Below the pieces are notes generated by a model. That model saw nothing but the letters and a program-made list of their open reading frames with translations. It did no database searches and had not been told where the DNA came from. Positions 2,603 through 41,496 of a stretch of DNA of 41,496 bases are shown here, piece after piece (position 1 is the stretch's first letter; every line of letters starts with the position of its first letter). Source of the stretch: Cnuella takakiae (GTDB lineage: Bacteria; Bacteroidota; Bacteroidia; Chitinophagales; Chitinophagaceae). The position numbers and the translations under genes are program-made. The stretch spans positions 3,813,945 to 3,855,440 of the forward strand of contig NZ_MTFE01000010.1 in assembly GCF_001953305.1 (NCBI RefSeq), given 5' to 3'.

Positions 2603-2736
2603 GTAGGTGTATGTAAAGGCATACAACCTTTGGCTTATGATGGTTGCAATATGTTTGGTGCAGCTATACAACAGGCAGGGTATCAAACAAAACAAAGGGG
2701 CTTGAAAAACAGTTAGGCATTGACGTGAGGTCAGCT

Positions 2737-2744
2737 TAGTTTTG
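2737..2744 (+). promoter_or_regulatory. candidate -7 box for the exported protein at 2766
   Basis: TAGTTTTG matches TAnnTTTG and ends 21 bases before the ATG. A TTG (2720-2722) lies 14 bases upstream, closer than the usual -33 spacing, so only the -7 element is convincing. Confidence 0.4.
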
Positions 2745-2765
2745 ATCCCTCAATTATCTTATACC

Positions 2766-3356
2766 ATGAAAACAATTAAAAATGCTGTACTCACCAGCCT
2801 TTTGGCATTAGGCGCAGCGGCACCTGCTTTTGCCCAGGAATCAAAGAAGGAATCCGAATTCCAGCTCTTATTGGGTGGCGCCCTTGAATTGGGGGGCGAC
2901 AATATCGCAACTGTTTACTTTACCAATGGCGAAGATCAGAAAGTAAACGCCGGCCAGGGTGGATCCATTGCGGTTGGCGGTCAATTGAAACTGGCCAATG
3001 CACCCAGGTTTTTGTTGCGTACCACGGTTGGTTTTAAATACCTGACCACACAGGCCGACAATGTACATATCCGGCTCACCCGCATTCCTTTTATTACAAC
3101 AGCCAACTGGATGGTGGCACCCAAACTGCGCATAGGCGCAGGCCTTTCAGCCCATACAGGAATCCGCTTCAAAACGGGTGGCATCGGTGATGATATGAAA
3201 TTTAAAGGTGCCGTTGGTCCTATTCTGGAGATTGCTTACAGCGGTATTGGCTTAAGCTACACGGCAATGAAATACACCGACACTGAAAAGAATACTTATT
3301 CCGCAAATGCAATAGGTATAACCATATCGGGTGTGGTAAGACCTAAGAAGAAGTAG
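2766..3356 (+). CDS. exported beta-rich protein, probable small outer-membrane barrel
   Basis: I do not recognise a named family. The 196-residue product begins with a clear signal peptide (MKTIKNAVLTSLLALGAAAP, cleavage probably after AFA-Q). The mature part is dominated by short alternating polar/hydrophobic strands joined by Gly-rich turns and contains no cysteine, as in small outer-membrane beta barrels. It ends in basic residues (RPKKK) rather than the aromatic residue typical of many barrels, so a periplasmic beta-sandwich is also possible. The frame extends to a TTG at 2742, but the ATG at 2766 directly precedes the signal peptide. It lies alone between two terminators. Confidence 0.7.
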   Translation: MKTIKNAVLTSLLALGAAAPAFAQESKKESEFQLLLGGALELGGDNIATVYFTNGEDQKVNAGQGGSIAVGGQLKLANAPRFLLRTTVGFKYLTTQADNVHIRLTRIPFITTANWMVAPKLRIGAGLSAHTGIRFKTGGIGDDMKFKGAVGPILEIAYSGIGLSYTAMKYTDTEKNTYSANAIGITISGVVRPKKK

Positions 3357-36755: not shown

Positions 36756-36942
36756 AGCAACGCGTTAATGCCGCAAATGTAGGCCAAATGCCACAGGACA
36801 AAGATGAGATAAAGCAATGTGCAGGAGAAGTAGCCGCAGAAAGCGACCAGTTCAACAAGTTTTAACCCCTTGTATACAGATACGGATCGGAGCTGCTGCT
36901 TTTTTCTACAACCATTCGTACCCAAAACTTGTCTTTAATGCT

Positions 36943-38466
36943 ATGACCGAAGTAAGCCTTGTTTTTCCGCACCAGCTGTTTCGCCAGCACCCGGCACTTG
37001 CCAAGGACCGTACCGTTTACTTGGTTGAAGAGCCGCTTTTCTTCACACAGTTTGCTTTCCACCAACAAAAGCTGGTACTCCACAGGGCCAGCATGCAGTT
37101 TTACCGGCAGTGGCTGCAGCAACAAGGATTTACGGTACACTACATTGCTTGCAAAGCTGCCAATGCAGATATTCGGGTATTGGTAAAGGAACTGGCAAAT
37201 GAAGGGGTGACCGCTTTCCACCTGTGCGAACTGGCAGATGACTGGCTCACCCGGCGGCTGCAAAAGGCTGCTGGTAGCAACAGCCTGGTATGGCACCGGT
37301 CGCCTGCATTTCTGAACAGCGCAACCGAAGGTTCCCTTCTTTTTCCTAAAGGCAAATATTTCCAGACCGATTTTTATAAGGCCCAACGGCAGCAGCGCAA
37401 CCTGTTGCTGGATGATGGCAAACCTTTGGGTGGCCGCTGGACTTTTGATGATGAAAACAGACTCAAGTTACCCAAAGAAGTACCGGTTCCACAGATGCCT
37501 TTACCAACAGCAAACCAGTGGGTAGATGAGGCGCTTAATTATGTACAGCAAAACTTCTCTAAACATTACGGCAGCACCCAGGCACCATTTACCGAAGGCA
37601 GAACGGAACGGTTCTACCCTACCACTTTTGAGGAGGCAGATGAATGGTTAGGCCATTTCCTGGAACAGCGCTTTGCATTGTTCGGCCCCTATGAAGATGC
37701 CCTTTCGCAGCGGCACCCGGTTATGTTTCACTCTTTATTATCGCCCCTCCTCAATACGGGTTTACTCACCCCGCAACAGGTGTTGAATGCAGTGCTGGAA
37801 CATGCTTCCCAACATGAAATCCCCATGAACTCGCTGGAAGGATTTATCCGGCAGCTAGTGGGCTGGCGCGAGTACATCCGGCAGGTATATGAATTGGAGG
37901 GACGCAAACAACGCACCCGCAATTACTGGGGCTTCAACCGGTCCATACCCGCATCATTTTACAACGGCACTACCGGCATTGCACCTATTGATGCCGTGAT
38001 CAAAAAAGTGCTCCAAACAGGTTATGCACACCACATTGAAAGGCTGATGGTGCTGGGCAACTTCTTCTTGCTCTGCGAATTTCACCCGGATGAAGTATAC
38101 CGCTGGTTTATGGAACTATTCATCGATAGCTACGACTGGGTGATGGTGCCCAATACTTACGGCATGACGCAGTTTGCGGATGGCGGACTGATGATGACCA
38201 AACCTTATATCAGCGGCAGCAATTACCTGATGAAGATGGGTGAGTTTACCAAGGGGCCATGGCAGGAAGTATGGGATGGATTGTTCTGGCGCTTTATGCA
38301 TGTACAGCGTAATTTCTTTTTGCAAAACCCAAGGCTGGGTATGCTGGTGCGCACTTTTGATAAAATGCCGGAGGCAAAAAGGCTTGCGCACCTGAAAGTA
38401 GCAAACGAGTTTTTGAAAAAGATAGACCGGAAAGAAGTGGTACAGGAAGCGCCGTTGCTGTTTTAG
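36943..38466 (+). CDS. PhrB/FeS-BCP family photolyase-like flavoprotein lacking the iron-sulfur cysteines
   Basis: The 507-residue product matches the deoxyribodipyrimidine photolyase-related (FeS-BCP, PhrB) family. The N-terminal alpha/beta antenna domain starts VSLVFPHQLF and contains VYLVEEPLFF. The FAD domain shows FIRQLVGWREYIRQVY, GYAHHIERLMVLGNFFLL and NTYGMTQFADGGLMMTKPYI. The two active-site histidines are His363 and His364. By alignment from memory, the four cluster cysteines of Agrobacterium PhrB (350, 438, 441, 454) fall on Pro348, Thr436, Pro439 and a shortened loop, so no [4Fe-4S] cluster can form there. The protein has three other cysteines, none in those places. The frame opens at 36817, but the ATG at 36943 gives the family N-terminus. 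Confidence 0.88.
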   Translation: MTEVSLVFPHQLFRQHPALAKDRTVYLVEEPLFFTQFAFHQQKLVLHRASMQFYRQWLQQQGFTVHYIACKAANADIRVLVKELANEGVTAFHLCELADDWLTRRLQKAAGSNSLVWHRSPAFLNSATEGSLLFPKGKYFQTDFYKAQRQQRNLLLDDGKPLGGRWTFDDENRLKLPKEVPVPQMPLPTANQWVDEALNYVQQNFSKHYGSTQAPFTEGRTERFYPTTFEEADEWLGHFLEQRFALFGPYEDALSQRHPVMFHSLLSPLLNTGLLTPQQVLNAVLEHASQHEIPMNSLEGFIRQLVGWREYIRQVYELEGRKQRTRNYWGFNRSIPASFYNGTTGIAPIDAVIKKVLQTGYAHHIERLMVLGNFFLLCEFHPDEVYRWFMELFIDSYDWVMVPNTYGMTQFADGGLMMTKPYISGSNYLMKMGEFTKGPWQEVWDGLFWRFMHVQRNFFLQNPRLGMLVRTFDKMPEAKRLAHLKVANEFLKKIDRKEVVQEAPLLF

Positions 38467-38792: not shown

Positions 38793-39068
38793 CTATCGCT
38801 TGGCAATTTTATTCATCGATACTGTTCTTTGCCGGCTGCACTTAAAGCGGTCCACAGCTTTGTTGCGCAGAGCTACATGCTTGGTACTGCGTCCCTGCAC
38901 CCTTTTGCGCCACATGCGGAATGAAGTAGCTTTCATTTCCTGCCGCATAATGCGAATCACGTTTGCTTCCGTAACACCAAACTGGGCCTCAATAGCATCA
39001 AAGGGCGTACGGTCTTCCCATGCCATTTCCACAATGCGGTCCCTTTCTGTTTGCGACAAATATTGCAT
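38793..39068 (-). CDS. TIGR03643-like (DUF2805-like) small helix-turn-helix-type protein
   Basis: The 91-residue product carries the conserved core of a small bacterial family I recognise as TIGR03643/DUF2805: DRIVEMAWEDRTPFDAIEAQ, then FGVTEANVIRIMRQEMKATS and FRMWRKRVQGRSTKH. The helical pattern and basic C-terminus suggest nucleic-acid binding, but no function is established to my knowledge. From memory, members often sit beside photolyase/cryptochrome genes, as this one does on both sides. The last 25 residues are poorly conserved-looking and basic. It diverges from the gene at 39110, with only 41 bases between start codons. Confidence 0.8.
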   Translation of the reverse strand: MQYLSQTERDRIVEMAWEDRTPFDAIEAQFGVTEANVIRIMRQEMKATSFRMWRKRVQGRSTKHVALRNKAVDRFKCSRQRTVSMNKIAKR

Positions 39069-39109: not shown

Positions 39110-40198
39110 ATGCATCATTTCCCTACGTCCTACCCACAAATACTGGAACGTATGCACCGCATCGACCCAGTACGGTATGCCAAAACCCGCAACTTTATAG
39201 ATGGCGACATCACGTATTTATCACCTTATATTTCCCGTGGCGTCATTTCGCTGCCACAAGTGGGGGATGCCGTGCTGGCAAAAGGCTACAAACCCTACGA
39301 GGTAGAAAAGTTTTTGCAGGAGCTTGCCTGGCGCGAGTTCTTCCAAAAAGTATGGTGGCAAATGGGCGACCGGATGTTTGCCGATATCAAACAACCACAG
39401 GCGGACGTACAACACCGCAGAATGATCCGGAGCCTTGCCGATGCCCAAACCGGCATTGAAGCCATTGACGAACAGATAAAAGGCCTGTACCAAACAGGTT
39501 ACCTGCACAACCATGCCCGCATGTATATAGCAGGCATGGCCTGCAACCTGGGCCGGGCACACTGGCAGGCACCATCGGAGTGGATGTATTACCACCTGCT
39601 GGATGGCGACCTGGCATCCAACACCTGTAGCTGGCAATGGGTAGCAGGATCGTTCAGCAGTAAAAAGTACATCGCCAACCAGGAAAATATCAACCGTTAC
39701 CTGCACAGCAATCAACGCGGCACTTTCCTCGATTGCGGTTATGACACCATACTGGACCAGGATGTGCCGCTAGCCATGCAAGCTACTACCGAGTTGCAAC
39801 TGGAAACACCATTACCTGCAGTGCAGCAATTGCAACTGGACGACGCCAAGCCTTTATTGCTGTACAATAGCTATAACCTCGATCCCACATGGCGGCAGCA
39901 GGACCAAGCCAACAGGGTATTGGTGCTGGAACCCGAACATTTTCGCCAACACCCCGTATCTGGTAAGGTGCTCAACTTTATTCTTGCTTTGGGCCAGAAT
40001 ATCGAAGGCCTGCAGCTATGGACAGGGGCAGTACAGGATATTCCGGGCATCAGGCAAATGAAAGTGTATAGCCGCATGCATCCGGTATCTGCGCACTATC
40101 CTGGTACGAAAGATCCTTACCCCTGGATGTTTCCGCAGGTGCAGGGTCAGTTCGGGTCATTCTTCTCTTTTTGGAAAAAAGCAGCGCGGTATTTATAG
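39110..40198 (+). CDS. photolyase-like flavoprotein with FAD domain first and shortened alpha/beta domain last
   Basis: The 362-residue product begins directly with the photolyase FAD-binding helical domain: DITYLSPYISRGVISLPQVG, FLQELAWREFFQKVWW, TGYLHNHARMYIAG and LLDGDLASNTCSWQWVAGSF. Asp165, Asn171, Trp175 and Trp177 correspond to E. coli photolyase Asp372, Asn378, Trp382 and Trp384. No N-terminal antenna domain precedes it. Instead residues from about 245 on read LLLYNSYNLDP, then NRVLVLEPEHFRQHP and a helix plus IEGLQLWTG. This resembles the strand-helix-strand start of a photolyase alpha/beta domain moved to the C-terminus. Repair or signalling function is unknown. It diverges from the TIGR03643-like gene. 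Confidence 0.82.
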   Translation: MHHFPTSYPQILERMHRIDPVRYAKTRNFIDGDITYLSPYISRGVISLPQVGDAVLAKGYKPYEVEKFLQELAWREFFQKVWWQMGDRMFADIKQPQADVQHRRMIRSLADAQTGIEAIDEQIKGLYQTGYLHNHARMYIAGMACNLGRAHWQAPSEWMYYHLLDGDLASNTCSWQWVAGSFSSKKYIANQENINRYLHSNQRGTFLDCGYDTILDQDVPLAMQATTELQLETPLPAVQQLQLDDAKPLLLYNSYNLDPTWRQQDQANRVLVLEPEHFRQHPVSGKVLNFILALGQNIEGLQLWTGAVQDIPGIRQMKVYSRMHPVSAHYPGTKDPYPWMFPQVQGQFGSFFSFWKKAARYL

Positions 40199-41392: not shown

Positions 41393-41440
41393 GGACCCAA
41401 ACAGACACCTGATTTCTTTTGTACCTTAAGCAGTTTTTTT

Positions 41441-41496
41441 CAATCACCAATCACCAATCACCAATCACCAATCACCAATCACCAATCACCAATCAC
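41441..41496 (+). repeat. heptanucleotide tandem repeat (CAATCAC)8, cut by the window edge
   Basis: Eight perfect copies of CAATCAC run to the last base. The true length of the array is unknown because the window ends inside it. Confidence 0.97.

Follow-up and report, generated by a model that had tools for sequence, protein, structure and literature searches.

The window (41,496 nucleotides from Cnuella takakiae) encodes a 362-residue protein that is best explained as a reversed-order photolyase of the NewPHL/SPL kind, with an N-terminal FAD domain containing a CPD pocket and a C-terminal reduced antenna that is probably free of pigment. The probability of this reading is put at roughly 80%. 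The layout itself is known, and the protein extends the known reversed-order photolyases by a conserved branch that is mostly from Bacteroidota. The initial annotation had held that the antenna comes first in all known photolyases, and had proposed a novel permuted or domain-swapped family unless published members of the same architecture existed. Such members (NewPHL, SPL, Phr7 and Phr4/5/6) are described in the accessible parts of PMC9426592 and PMC13274461. Circular permutation as a novelty was consequently rejected.

Judged by its sequence and by analogy with published relatives, the protein is most likely an antenna-less CPD photolyase. In the proposed mechanism, the N-terminal helical domain would bind FAD and house the CPD lesion pocket. 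We infer that the C-terminal domain, a reduced Rossmann-like antenna, probably holds no pigment now and seals the FAD domain instead. FAD would be photoreduced along a two-tryptophan path (W175, W152), after which the excited FADH- could pass an electron to the CPD, leading to its splitting. The damaged strand would probably be single-stranded DNA, on which published reversed-order relatives repair CPDs according to the available sections of PMC9426592 and PMC13274461.

Table 1. Features of the probable reversed-order photolyase gene and of its neighbours (positions in the window; residue numbers refer to the 362-residue product unless stated otherwise)
Feature	Positions	Strand	Basis
Neighbouring photolyase, 549 aa, PF04244 domain, usual order	36817..38466	+	PF04244 E 8.7e-51
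Small TIGR03643 gene, function not known	38793-39068	-	E 8e-35
Whole gene, probable reversed-order short photolyase (NewPHL/SPL-like), 362 aa, ATG start	39110..40198	+	Homologues aligned from 39/51 loci; AF2 pLDDT 95.1
FAD/catalytic domain, residues ~8-214	39131..39751	+	Pfam FAD_binding_7; PDB sequence match; AF2 helices
HNHARM, residues 133-138, reversed-order photolyase signature	39506..39523	+	HNHxRM counts across ORFs
DGDLASN (165-171) and SWQW (174-177): FAD-binding aspartates, Trp1 W175, CPD-pocket W177	39602..39640	+	PDB alignment
KKYIANQENIN, residues 185-195, clade-specific, immediately past the FAD core	39662..39694	+	Motif counts
Compact C-terminal alpha/beta domain, residues ~245-362, probable reduced antenna	39842..40195	+	AF2, profile match

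Domain order and the C-terminal domain

Pfam assigned residues 68-187 of the product to FAD_binding_7 (E 8.6e-22), and its scan of the product did not find an antenna domain; neither the PF04244 domain nor the N-terminal antenna of class I photolyases is present. In a phmmer search against PDB sequences, residues 23-184 matched residues 227-398 of the class I photolyase 1tez (E 1.8e-16), which places the beginning of the FAD domain close to the N-terminus. Four NCBIfam photolyase/cryptochrome models place residues 19-189 on the C-terminal half of photolyases, with scores far below their cut-offs. The full-length AlphaFold2 model (40 sequences; pLDDT 95.1, pTM 0.93) contains helices up to residue ~214. 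These are followed by strands 249-253 and 268-273, helices 275-280 and 285-295, strands 301-305, 319-322 and 333-335, and a final helix 351-359. The earlier description of the 362-residue ORF thus held: an FAD domain within ~30 residues of the start, the DGDLASN and SWQW elements, and an alpha/beta domain thereafter. When the full model was compared to the PDB by Foldseek, all 50 matches listed were photolyases or cryptochromes (best E 8.1e-8; 200-258 columns), 1dnp among them with 216 columns at an rmsd of 2.9. From the column counts, these matches appear to correspond to the FAD part.

Residues 240-362 modelled alone gave a pLDDT of 93.5 and a pTM of 0.79. This part of the protein is best read as a reduced antenna domain; profile-profile comparison supports this moderately, short of proof. 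A canonical antenna profile (PF00875 type) was pooled from 16 cluster-type and 29 class I-type sequences, and its sparse columns were trimmed. In hhalign, the C-terminal domain scored 32.1 against this profile (P 1.3e-4), a value reached by none of 300 column shuffles (best 22.1) and compared to 14.2 for the reversed profile. When the pool was extended by four Deinococcus antenna domains, the score was 41.2 (P 6.5e-6) over 86 columns to the domain end; these strongest values follow pooling and trimming and are the best of about ten comparisons. The untrimmed pooled profile scored 27.9, and the highest score among 25 decoy families was 19.1; these families were assembled from different ORFs at the same loci and were neither pooled nor trimmed. 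Untrimmed single-group profiles lay just above the decoys (class I-type 21.4, cluster type 20.0, Deinococcus 19.5), and the first hhalign runs with such profiles gave P values of 0.023 to 0.39. Scores as good against the C-terminus of the window clade were obtained by 0/60 shuffles for Deinococcus and by 1/60 each for the class I-type and the cluster type; one class I-type shuffle scored 132.6, which is unexplained. All antenna alignments start at the second strand of the C-terminal domain.

Further evidence comes from other proteins with the same domain order. Six are encoded on alphaproteobacterial plasmids (L057, L058, L073, L074, L075 and L077; 390-410 aa) and three on Deinococcus plasmids (L056, L076 and L078; 456-480 aa, with CxxC in 3/3). 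In Deinococcus sp. QL22 (L114) the two domains are split over a pair of ORFs, with the FAD ORF at 1896-2669 and the antenna ORF at 2666-3187 of that locus, overlapping by 4 bases. The Deinococcus C-terminal domains scored 60.5 against the canonical antenna profile (P 3e-8). PF00875 was found on two of the three Deinococcus C-termini (E 7.2e-4 and 1.1e-3; both fall short of the curated cut-off), and a class I-type antenna HMM placed two of the three above the best decoy (E 1.2e-4 and 3.7e-4 vs 0.013), with L056 below it at 0.017. The alphaproteobacterial C-termini resembled the Deinococcus ones (32.1, P 2.9e-4) and, weakly, the canonical antenna (23.0, P 0.021).

The best-surviving rival, which is considered unlikely, holds that the C-terminal domain is an unrelated small alpha/beta domain, so that the protein would be a fusion and not a reversed photolyase. 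It is consistent with the Pfam results, as no family other than FAD_binding_7 fell below E 0.01 in 40 members, and with the HMM-to-sequence searches between the window-clade C-terminal profile and antenna domains, where nothing rose above shuffled decoys in either direction. Foldseek with the C-terminal model yielded no PDB match that reached E <= 0.001, and the 50 matches listed, led by assorted Rossmann-like and other proteins, included no photolyase. Similarity was likewise not detected between the C-termini of the window clade and the alphaproteobacterial ones (18/60 shuffles and 17/25 decoys as good), nor with the PF04244 antenna, for which 17/60 shuffles and 8/25 decoy families did as well. 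Against this rival stand the pooled antenna scores with their shuffle and decoy controls, as well as the PF00875 matches in the same-order Deinococcus proteins. In addition, a Fowlpox virus 'hypothetical photolyase' heads the listed BFVD matches of the C-terminal model (E 0.04, probability 0.89). None of the remaining 49 listed there exceeded a probability of 0.41, and a photolyase-domain protein of Salmon gill poxvirus ranked 35th (E 0.89); the poxvirus matches are only suggestive of an antenna origin.

The initial annotation had likened the C-terminus to the start of the antenna domain, taking the neighbouring photolyase as the example. This likeness stood for the PF00875-type profile; for the PF04244 neighbour it did not exceed the controls. 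The profile search that it had proposed for the last 120 residues succeeded only at the profile-profile level. If the reduced-antenna reading is followed, the sequence resemblance thus points, at moderate strength, to the PF00875 type rather than to the PF04244 type of the neighbour.

Lesion pocket and tryptophans

Residues were mapped to the numbering of the A. nidulans photolyase through the PDB alignment and the columns of the tree alignment, and the pocket and Trp residues were given the roles generally ascribed to those A. nidulans positions. The FAD contacts are given in a figure legend within the accessible part of PMC9426592. Conservation was read from an alignment of 40 rows, composed of the window protein and homologues from 39 of 51 loci. 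Four pocket residues (W74, N134, M138 and W177) are invariant in 40/40 rows. The fifth, at position 71, is E in 27/40 and Q in 13/40, and either residue matches the class I-type rows. Trp1 (W175) is kept in 40/40 and Trp2 (W152) in 37/40.

The third tryptophan is missing: its column is without W in 22/22 window-kind rows, in 6/6 alphaproteobacterial and in 4/4 Deinococcus reversed rows. It is present in 26/29 class I/DASH-type, 6/6 PF04244 and 1/8 usual-order cluster-type rows. The cluster type shows that Trp3 can be missing outside the reversed proteins as well. The window protein therefore shows the tryptophan dyad in place of a triad that is a feature of NewPHL/SPL; the NewPHL of D. shibae is said to have 'a mere Trp dyad' in the portion of PMC8948257 that is available. 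A separate tryptophan, W82 (39353-39355), is kept in 37/40 homologues and is found in neither the alphaproteobacterial nor the Deinococcus reversed rows. In the window clade it might substitute for the absent third tryptophan.

A cryptochrome-like light sensor, or another non-repairing protein, is a still less probable identity. The lack of the third tryptophan would suit it, and the photolyase-family genes that are often present nearby could perform the repair. The pocket argues otherwise, as four of its five positions are invariant and the fifth varies in the manner of class I-type enzymes, and reversed-order relatives are reported to repair CPDs (PMC9426592 and PMC13274461, as far as these texts are available). 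A CPD photolyase of reversed order is thus preferred.

HNHxRM occurs in 61/61 window-kind proteins, in 5/6 alphaproteobacterial and in 3/3 single-ORF Deinococcus reversed proteins, and in 0/88 other photolyase ORFs (a few of the 88 being duplicate copies of one gene). KKYIANQENIN is exact in 45/61 window-kind proteins and fits the pattern KKY.ANQ.N[IVL]N in 57/61, while KKYIANQ was found in 0/88 other photolyase ORFs. CxxC is absent from 61/61, and the window kind therefore fits the Phr7/NewPHL kind and not the Fe-S kind.

Distribution and gene neighbourhood

The ORF is real and conserved, and not a chance reading frame. Relatives are encoded at 51 genome loci (38-62% identity), the closest of them in Chitinophagaceae and Flavihumibacter (55-62%). 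The reversed ORF was recognised in 48 of the 51 loci, in two of them shortened. An artefact of gene prediction or assembly, by which a normal photolyase would have its antenna half upstream in another frame, has a negligible chance, given that 46/61 proteins of the window's kind measure 358-379 aa, that the model reaches a pLDDT of 95 and that the upstream gap of ~640 bases holds the TIGR03643 gene on the opposite strand.

The window protein is part of a conserved clade whose genomes mostly bear Bacteroidota names, and genes of this clade often lie near one or two full-length photolyases. The survey of Bacteroidota for the same domain order that the initial annotation had called for returned full-length matches (E < 1e-100) in 18/395 sampled genomes of the phylum, its own genome counted; a second genome of the source genus was without one. 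Locus L007, one of the 51, is labelled Verrucomicrobia, and another, L037, bears the name of the verrucomicrobial genus Rubritalea. One scan of viruses gave 29 pattern matches without a relative among them, and 10 phage records matched, none of them across >80% of the query.

The source genome contains three FAD_binding_7 proteins, namely the window protein, its PF04244 neighbour and a 488-aa protein that is encoded elsewhere and bears PF00875 at its N-terminus. A neighbour of the PF04244 kind, recognised by its motif pattern, is found in 17/48 homologous loci and a second photolyase-type ORF in the flank of at least 26/48. In at least 13/48 loci a usual-order photolyase ORF lies directly downstream (-75 to +29 bases). 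The last two counts are lower bounds, as contig ends cut many flanks.

Several observations were made on these surroundings. The TIGR03643 gene sits between the two photolyase genes of the window, and genes of this family occur near photolyases elsewhere. In the PF04244 neighbour, cysteines are confined to its residues 2, 19, 112, 137 and 420; by sequence, the Fe-S cysteines known from the FeS-BCP photolyases seem to be missing from it. Members of that group without a cluster are mentioned in the accessible part of PMC9178010. The full-length photolyase type found downstream at other loci (e.g., L005:3117-4628, L022:7108-8595, L060:5028-6548 and L115:4070-5539) has an altered FAD/lesion pocket in 8/8 rows: the pocket N is replaced by F, the pocket M by A, the second D of DGD by E, Trp1 by F and the pocket W by M. 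Its nearest tree row is a Halobaculum protein, and it is possibly a subgroup with a different substrate. At the end of the window (~41440-41496), a 7-base unit, CAATCAC, was read by eye as repeated head-to-tail.

Reversed-order relatives and known systems

A tree of the FAD domain was built from 75 rows and 200 columns, with PF04244 proteins as an outgroup on a long branch. The window-kind proteins form one group (94/94), and the class I/DASH-type and cluster-type proteins together form another (100/99). In the free tree the alphaproteobacterial reversed proteins stand beside the canonical photolyases (93/76), apart from the other reversed groups. Forcing all reversed proteins into one clade (the window clade, the six alphaproteobacterial relatives and Deinococcus, with no characterised NewPHL sequence among them) cost 5.8 log units and was not rejected (p-AU 0.394). 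A single origin of the domain reversal is thus possible.

SPL/NewPHL have been proposed in the literature to be primitive, antenna-less ancestors of photolyases. The present data permit a tentative reading that opposes this proposal and falls somewhat short of even odds: the C-terminal domains of all reversed-order photolyases would be one antenna domain, variously reduced since the domain order was swapped once, with the window clade the most reduced, and SPL/NewPHL would not be primitive ancestors. From the end of the FAD-core match to the C-terminus there are 162 residues in the window protein, 181-192 in the six alphaproteobacterial proteins and 221-246 in Deinococcus. Confidence in this reading was lowered slightly because the C-terminal part of the window protein is only ~20-30 residues shorter than the alphaproteobacterial one. 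The analysis nevertheless supplies a statistical link between the short C-terminal domain of reversed-order photolyases and the antenna domain. If this link holds in structure, the antenna-less origin of photolyases becomes directly testable. The 362-residue protein also offers a natural small photolyase for biochemistry.

The trees in the two key papers on reversed-order photolyases, by Emmerich et al. (2020) and Xu et al. (2021), may include Bacteroidota sequences. The literature search, with subscription papers mostly outside its coverage, returned no paper on the Bacteroidota reversed clade or its gene cluster. The NewPHLs or SPLs are described as having 'an inverted domain topology' in the available part of PMC13274461, and this topology, with the FAD domain N-terminal and a short domain C-terminal, is that of the window protein. 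NewPHL/SPL, including Prochlorococcus Phr7, share with it the FAD domain first, the short alpha/beta domain last, a CPD-type pocket and the Trp dyad. They also have in common the absence of CxxC, Phr7 being without Fe-S cysteines according to the accessible text of PMC9426592. An Fe-S cluster is stated for the SPL ancestor in the part of PMC9649867 that is available, and four Fe-S cysteines for Phr4/Phr6 in that of PMC9426592; these cysteines, which mark the SPL ancestor and Phr4/5/6, are absent from the window kind. Compared to its alphaproteobacterial NewPHL-like relatives, the window protein differs in its separate clade, in KKYIANQENIN and in being often clustered with other photolyases.

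Phr4/Phr5/Phr6 of Synechococcus/Cyanobium and the Deinococcus proteins also have the FAD domain followed by an antenna domain, and the Deinococcus proteins carry the same pocket residues and HNHxRM. Unlike the window kind, Phr4/Phr6 possess the Fe-S cysteines, and the Deinococcus proteins have CxxC and a longer C-terminal part. Phr4/Phr5 are split into two genes, and the split pair of L114 resembles the published phr4/phr5 of marine Synechococcus.

The class I CPD photolyases share the fold of the FAD domain (Anacystis nidulans 1owl, 212 columns, rmsd 2.9) together with the FAD and CPD-pocket residues. In contrast to the window protein, their antenna domain comes first, their HNH motif carries R where the window protein has H (29/29 rows), and they retain Trp3 in 26/29.
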